Shown here: in pieces, positions 58,594-58,715 of the stretch
Layout of the letters: the number at the start of each line of letters is the position of its first letter
How positions within the stretch are numbered: the stretch's first letter is position 1
NCBI RefSeq assembly: GCF_947489255.1
Contig: NZ_CANLCY010000002.1
Span: 186,001-250,000, forward strand
Source of the DNA: an uncultured Microbacterium sp.
GTDB taxonomy: Bacteria; Actinomycetota; Actinomycetes; Actinomycetales; Microbacteriaceae
Length of the DNA stretch: 64,000 bases
Reading direction: 5' to 3'
Position numbers and translations under genes: made by a program
The notes under the pieces: model-generated
The model's database searches: none
What the model was told of the DNA's origin: nothing
The model's input: only the letters and a program-made list of their open reading frames with translations

Positions 58594-58599
58594 TATCGT
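58594..58599 (+). promoter_or_regulatory. Promoter -10 box of the leuCD leader
   Basis: TATCGT lies six bases before the GTG of the leader peptide, the same spacing as at other leaderless genes in the window, so the leader would be translated from the first base of the transcript. Confidence 0.65.
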
Positions 58600-58605
58600 G
58601 ACCGG

Positions 58606-58656
58606 GTGCGGATCGCTCGCCTCCTCCTTAGCGGCCGCGACGAGACCTTGTTCTAG
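58606..58656 (+). CDS. leuCD leader peptide
   Basis: A 16-codon frame reads MRIARLLLSGRDETLF and ends with TAG. Three leucine codons in a row (CTC CTC CTT) and a fourth (TTG) near the end make it a likely sensor of charged tRNA-Leu: a ribosome stalled on these codons would cover the region before the hairpin. It is too short for usual gene finders. It sits 59 bases before leuC. The peptide itself is probably without function. Confidence 0.72.
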   Translation: MRIARLLLSGRDETLF

Positions 58657-58687
58657 GCCTTTCTCGTCGCGGAGTTCGTCGCGGGCC
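58633..58687 (+). promoter_or_regulatory. Attenuator-like alternative hairpins before leuC
   Basis: CGCGACGAGA (58636-58645), inside the leader peptide frame, can pair perfectly with TCTCGTCGCG (58662-58671). The same left arm, extended by GGC, can instead pair with TCGTCGCGGGCC (58676-58687). The two right arms are direct repeats, so the pairings exclude each other. Ribosome position on the leucine codons would decide which forms. Confidence 0.68.
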
Positions 58688-58715
58688 TCACACCCCTTCC
58701 GAGGAGAAACGCAGA

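Follow-up and report, generated by a model that had tools for sequence, protein, structure and literature searches.

A copy of the LEU element before leuCD in Microbacteriaceae, a probable translational switch

Introduction

How is leuCD controlled in an actinobacterium that carries, just upstream of leuC, a short reading frame with three Leu codons in a row? The question is raised by a 64,000-nt stretch of genomic DNA from an uncultured Microbacterium sp. (contig NZ_CANLCY010000002.1, forward strand), here called the window, to whose positions all unlabelled coordinates refer. The host genome is 3.53 Mb in size, and its LeuC is 96% identical to a Microbacterium testaceum record. An earlier reading of the window's letters (the original prediction) proposed a leaderless leucine leader peptide and an attenuator.

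For actinobacterial leuA, a LEU element was described by Seliverstov et al. in 2005 (PMC1262725), together with a base stem in which the Leu codons pair with the Shine-Dalgarno region. The passages of that paper that deal with the element give its locations as leuA operons and one transposase, report that S. coelicolor leuA leader mutations were inconsistent with classical attenuation, propose a protein ligand, and leave the mechanism open.

Results

A leader frame at a predicted RNA 5′ end

The features of the locus are as follows.

57178–58491, − strand: divergent gene for a Cys/Met-metabolism PLP enzyme, the 5′ neighbour of the element
58594–58599, + strand: predicted −10 box TATCGT (TANNNT), 6 nt 5′ of the leader GTG
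58606–58656, + strand: leader frame VRIARLLLSGRDETLF, GTG start, TAG stop (58654–58656), 16 codons plus stop
58621–58629, + strand: sensor codons CTC CTC CTT (minimum-energy fold; swap tests)
58630–58634, + strand: 5-nt spacer from the last Leu codon to the stem
58635–58644, + strand: 5′ strand of stem S1, CCGCGACGAG, within the leader frame (RNAalifold; swap test)
58655–58659, + strand: 5′ strand of putative pseudoknot helix P3, AGGCC, in the S1 loop and overlapping the stop codon
58663–58672, + strand: 3′ strand of stem S1, CTCGTCGCGG (RNAalifold; swap test)
58675–58687, + strand: second repeat, a possible pairing partner of the S1 5′ strand, overlapping the P3 3′ strand
58684–58688, + strand: 3′ strand of P3, GGCCT
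58701–58706, + strand: GAGGAG, Shine-Dalgarno sequence of leuC and complement of the Leu codons
58716–60212, + strand: leuC, 3-isopropylmalate dehydratase large subunit (NCBIfam TIGR00170, E 8e-224)
60214–60810, + strand: leuD, 3-isopropylmalate dehydratase small subunit (NCBIfam TIGR00171, E 3.6e-58)
from 60874: murA, 3′ of leuD

The predicted succession of TATCGT, six bases and a GTG opening a 16-codon frame with CTC CTC CTT was confirmed at 58594–58656. The codons are GTG CGG ATC GCT CGC CTC CTC CTT AGC GGC CGC GAC GAG ACC TTG TTC TAG, and the GTG at 58606 lies 110 nt upstream of the leuC start. The frame is predicted to start at, or adjacent to, the 5′ end of the RNA; the box spacing of the window element fits this layout. 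A promoter consensus scan, which seeks TTGACA/TATAAT pairs, returned 0 sites. No Rfam family reached its gathering score over the element or in six related loci, and a relaxed threshold gave a single weak, unrelated match. Elsewhere in the window, Rfam RF00023 marks a tmRNA gene (10231–10601). The single-sequence fold energy of the window RNA is unremarkable (z-score −0.23); therefore, energy alone is uninformative here.

Related elements were collected with a covariance model built from 52 elements (24 leuC, 28 leuA), and sequence and model together confirmed that the element in front of leuC is real rather than a product of chance. A leader frame was present in 150 of 150 family model matches among those listed; the script picked in-frame leaders, and even so none of the model matches listed failed, whereas 23 further named loci carried the frame by selection and are not independent support. 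Seven of the resulting 173 elements had no script-assigned gene start and were excluded from the pairing tests. The remaining 166, from family genomes and named loci, may include the same or near species; identical pairs were removed in swaps. Their leaders start with GTG (101) or ATG (65), and the distance from leader start to gene start is 103–124 nt in 141. A TANNNT box lies 5–7 nt before the leader start in 164 of the 166 curated elements, a figure to be read knowing that the script favoured starts with a box and that the covariance model contained the box. The spacing is 6 nt in 135 elements, 7 nt in 27, 5 nt in 2 and 9 nt in 2; as a baseline, such a box precedes 13 of 3602 ATG/GTG triplets on both strands of the window at 5–7 nt.

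Across 182 elements, the start-to-stem distance takes six lengths (29 nt in 132), and the frame is kept in all 182. The Leu codons are likewise kept in relatives, the last of them ending 5 nt before the stem in 169 elements and 2 nt before it in 13, and the stop codon falls within the stem loop in 181. The sole exception is a leuA2 leader (L270, near position 510), VRSIEFLLL, which stops directly after the Leu run. Box spacing and the conserved frame speak for a leucine leader with a predicted leaderless layout. In this family such a layout is not unusual, as the original prediction had it: the S. lividans leuA leader is reported, in the part of PMC8079986 that concerns it, to be transcribed leaderless. 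That leader, LeuL1, has 15 residues (MRFGLLLLSCRGEGL) and no terminator, like the element here, and is close to the leuA leader of our host, MRFGGLLLLSCRDESSF; LeuL1 belongs to leuA, not leuC.

The element is a copy of the leuA LEU element

By sequence comparison, the window element is a copy of the actinobacterial LEU element known from leuA, a kinship beyond the reach of the original prediction. The host genome has two LEU copies, one before leuC (E 8.5e-27) and one before leuA (E 9.9e-23), both being covariance-model matches at E up to 0.01 and both among the 52 training members. In a DNA search of the host's own genome, the two copies are 84% identical over 71 query positions (E 1.8e-14), and the leader of the leuA copy begins six bases after a TANNNT box. 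With the LEU element as characterized in passages of PMC1262725, the window copy shares the Leu-codon ORF, the pseudoknot and homology to the leuA copies; it differs in preceding leuCD and in being its genome's second, alongside the one at leuA. The open-licence PMC literature searched yielded no report of the element before leuC.

At family level the model matched 95 of 100 genomes, within the genus 59 of 59, and across the class 273 of 296; the genus and class figures are counts of matches that were not inspected one by one. Of the 97 genomes in the 100-genome family sample whose LeuC match is strong, at least 56 have the element within 500 nt before leuC, a lower bound because the 150 matches listed were used and LeuC-like rows with E above 1e-160 were left out; among the matches listed, the remaining 94 precede leuA. 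When 80 named leuC loci were compared, the element was found in 23 of 34 Microbacteriaceae and in 0 of 46 loci from other or unnamed families, with the 34 assigned from record titles and tree labels and with Rhodoluna (L034), which we take to be a member, counted among them. In Herbiconiux daphne (L011, 729–848), an element is found some 750 nt upstream of the matched LeuC region, where it precedes an Ala/Asp/Pro-rich reading frame. On a LeuC tree of 79 of the 81 sequences, carriers are confined to the Microbacteriaceae branch (24 with, 10 without), and 7 changes, all on that branch or within it, are required to account for where the leuC copy occurs; this is compatible with a single gain followed by losses, or with several gains.

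Three or more model matches were found in 16 of the 59 sampled genus genomes. Seventeen extra places were examined, 16 from the genus and one from a different genus of this family. All but one proved to be elements before a second leuA (leuA2), 48–56% identical to the first; the other (L278) lacked a leader, was not an element and was dropped. The leuA2 elements (L263–L277 and L279, near position 500, oriented) come from Microbacterium and one related genus, and in most of them the leader ends RRHGGA.

A conserved stem and pseudoknot, and a second repeat

The 10-bp stem S1 overlies the end of the leader frame. RNAalifold recovers all 10 bp without guidance, two of the positions showing changes in both strands, and a swap test, in which strands are compared with partners from other elements, gave z 6.9 for 29 distinct S1 pairs; the covariation anticipated for the stem was thereby found.

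The original prediction missed a pseudoknot helix, P3, which is seen by comparison. In swap tests on the longest Watson-Crick helix, P3 scored z 2.4 for leuC, 2.6 for leuA, 3.6 for both and 7.4 with leuA2 added; the leuB type described below gave 5.2, and all 207 elements of the four classes gave 9.6, where tests pooled over gene classes gain from between-class differences. The signal is weaker by duplex energies (z 1.1 for leuC, 2.3 for leuA and leuC). Swap tests are independent of our MAFFT alignment, in which 73.8% of the cells counted for P3 were paired, as were 99.6% of those for the stem; pairs with double changes were no more frequent there than in shuffles (4 versus 3.2), and the covariation score beat the shuffles (0/500). 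In most leuA2 elements, P3 is formed by GACCGGC with GCCGGTC. We conclude that these comparisons support the pseudoknot well family-wide, and weakly for leuC taken alone.

Both complementarities on which the original prediction built are present: CGCGACGAGA (58636–58645) is complementary to TCTCGTCGCG (58662–58671), and CCGCGACGA (58635–58643) is complementary over 9 bp to TCGTCGCGG (58676–58684) in the second repeat. A switch in which CGCGACGAGA alternates between the first and second downstream repeats as the ribosome advances would make use of this 9-bp alternative, and the region does outdo shuffled versions of itself in pairing, most plainly when G-U pairs are allowed (leuC 6.33 versus 4.75, leuA 6.17 versus 4.68) and also by Watson-Crick pairs (leuC 4.35 versus 3.74, leuA 4.33 versus 3.63). 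However, partner-specific covariation is absent (swap z 0.29 for Watson-Crick pairs and 1.36 with G-U; N 154) in a test that is low in power because the stem strand scarcely varies. Moreover, the 9-bp Watson-Crick match recurs in only 3 of 72 leuC and 1 of 94 leuA elements, and in leuA2 elements pairing with G-U is not above shuffles (4.94 versus 4.97). The second repeat was rejected as a switch partner for want of a partner-specific signal, and we regard such a switch as very improbable. The Leu run and the post-stem region can also form a nested helix, UUAGC:GCUGA; its signal depended on G-U pairs and was seen in leuA (z 3.1), with no signal in leuC (z 0.8).

The Leu codons are matched to the leuC Shine-Dalgarno sequence

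The Leu codons have their conserved partner in the leuC Shine-Dalgarno sequence, a pairing also overlooked by the original prediction. In the minimum-energy fold, CTCCTC (58621–58626) pairs with GAGGAG (58701–58706). The longest Watson-Crick helix averaged 5.45 for own partners and 4.98 for swapped partners (z 6.2; 0/2000; N 165), with z 3.3 for leuC alone and 5.1 for leuA alone, while the codons preceding the Leu run, used as a control tract, gave z ≤1.6 in the across-genome swap. Across-genome swaps ignore kinship, for which a within-genome swap of leuA and leuC partners corrects, although it is weaker: in 50 genomes the own partner was better in 26 and the swapped partner in 9, with 15 ties (sign p 0.003). 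The variants agreed (24 versus 11 with G-U, 31 versus 16 by energy; p 0.02 each); for the control tract, own partners were better in 19 and swapped partners in 12. In our host, CTCCTC stands opposite GAGGAG in the leuC copy, and CTTCTT stands opposite AAGAAG in the leuA copy. The two or three such copies in a genome speak for a pairing between sensor codons and ribosome-binding site. These partner-specific tests are what is new relative to the 2005 description of the pairing.

Codons of the Leu run are CTT (308), CTC (181) or CTG (71) of 571, and the final one is CTT in 155 of 166 elements; CTT use in leuC, leuD and murA is 2 of 97. Rare-codon sensing could be an alternative reason for the CTT preference.

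A stalled ribosome is predicted to expose the Shine-Dalgarno sequence

Accessibility was modelled by folding with ribosome-covered stretches blocked and pseudoknots excluded, omitting the 6 of 166 elements without a 4-nt Shine-Dalgarno match; in the stalled state the ribosome sits on the last Leu codon. The mean unpaired probability of the Shine-Dalgarno sequence in 71 leuC elements was 0.21 with the RNA free, 0.50 with a stalled ribosome and 0.30 with a ribosome at the stop codon; for 89 leuA elements, the values were 0.15, 0.50 and 0.20. The stalled state exceeded the free state in modelled accessibility in 147 of 160 elements and the state at the stop in 138, and in 13 of 160 stalling failed to increase it. 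The window element opens partially in this folding model without pseudoknots (free 0.04, stalled 0.39, at stop 0.20). The host leuA copy is predicted to be open in most states (0.58, 0.99 and 0.91), and within the folding model it is a poor switch.

By the geometry of frameshifting sites, a 5-nt gap would mean that a ribosome halted on the last Leu codon has its mRNA entry at the closed pseudoknot. From the modelled accessibility and this gap we infer a translational switch with the sensor codons as its lock. We conclude that the LEU element before leuCD is probably such a switch, in which a Leu-stalled ribosome would likely free the leuC Shine-Dalgarno sequence.

The original prediction, which left a choice between control of leuC translation and a GC-rich terminator, is supported in that the leader would control leuCD, most likely at translation, and is not supported as to the terminator: a scan of the window element found 0 intrinsic-terminator-like sites. 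The hairpin and U-tract terminator of a classical transcription attenuator were likewise not found here. A leader ribosome could instead set read-through against termination before leuC at a Rho-dependent or undetected terminator, by a general logic resembling that of amino-acid attenuators, and Rho-dependent control has been suggested, in a passage of PMC1262725, for mycobacterial cys leaders. We consider this unlikely, given the missing terminator-like site, the little room that the short distance from leader start to gene leaves, and a partner-specific match between Leu codons and Shine-Dalgarno sequence that transcriptional attenuation does not predict.

A Val/Ile/Leu version before leuB

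Seven weaker model matches in other families carried Val/Ile/Leu codons (first seen in L292, L295, L302, L304, L305, L308 and L310). In 26 elements of this kind, residues 4–11 comprise 37 V, 33 L and 26 I, ahead of the same type of stem with the stop in its loop; the frame is not a test in this set, because the script fixed it. Leaders from other actinobacterial families include MARQLVILSSRGEFR and MRSVFVLIDCRGEA, and elements lie around position 1500 (oriented) in L313–L325, L327, L329, L330, L332, L333, L335, L337, L339 and L342. In 30 fetched loci, leuB (reference NCBIfam NF002898) was downstream on the same strand in 22 and leuA in 4. P3 helices reach 10 bp here, with quite different sequences. 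A TANNNT box lies 4–9 nt from the start in 17 of 26 elements, mostly at 9 nt, so leaderlessness is less clear in this type. Between element and leuB, 20 of 22 loci have a small conserved ORF, about 25–50 aa from its likely start and ending like ALQEAMDRRDNGGETGH or LDLRDGGGQRPDDN (L315, L316, L324, L332 and others); a Pfam search with two examples gave no match. No covariation was found between the sensor codons and the Shine-Dalgarno sequence of the small ORF, and the output side must therefore differ. We found no report of a Val/Ile/Leu version before leuB in the open-licence PMC literature searched.

The leuB type bears on the proposal of 2005, transferred to this locus, that the element is bound by a regulatory protein, with the leader frame playing an incidental or secondary part. 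The strong conservation of stem and pseudoknot fits such binding, and for leuA a protein ligand was preferred, in passages of PMC1262725, on the strength of leader mutations and co-occurrence with ML1624 orthologs. Yet changes in length are in frame throughout, the stop is held in the loop, the box keeps its spacing, and before leuB the Leu codons are swapped for Val/Ile/Leu codons while stem and pseudoknot are retained. Without translation of the codons these features would be difficult to account for, and the exchange before leuB indicates that codons are read, which counts against the protein-binding proposal. We judge it distinctly unlikely for the window element.

Discussion

Under the translational switch that we favour, transcription would begin at or beside the GTG at 58606. 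With leucine plentiful, a ribosome would pass the Leu codons, open the pseudoknot and terminate within the stem loop, where the stop codon lies; the bare Leu codons would then pair with GAGGAG, turning leuC off. With leucyl-tRNA scarce, the ribosome would halt on the Leu codons, 5 nt short of the closed pseudoknot, and would block their pairing, turning leuC on. The sensor codons would thus double as the anti-Shine-Dalgarno strand.

In translational attenuation of the ermC type, ribosome stalling releases a Shine-Dalgarno sequence from sequestration. The switch proposed here would differ in that the stalling codons are themselves the sequestering strand and that the signal is codon starvation, not a drug. 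Polycysteine leaderless attenuators have reportedly been found in mycobacteria by Canestrari and colleagues in 2020; they share with the LEU element a leaderless short ORF and a run of the sensed residue, and differ in sensing cysteine and in serving other genes.

More broadly, we suggest, with about even confidence, that Actinobacteria have a codon-programmable ribosome switch, in which leaderless sensor codons stand 5 nt before a stop-bearing H-type pseudoknot. In its Leu version the codons would double as anti-Shine-Dalgarno; it would have been copied among leuA, leuA2 and leuC, and reprogrammed to Val/Ile/Leu before leuB. If true, the double role would explain the paradoxical codon-substitution tests on leuA, where sensor and lock would have been destroyed together. 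Copies with differing codons and Shine-Dalgarno sequences in one genome amount to natural compensatory mutants. In a family of common bacteria, the LEU element is now extended to leuCD, and the proposed mechanism is directly testable.
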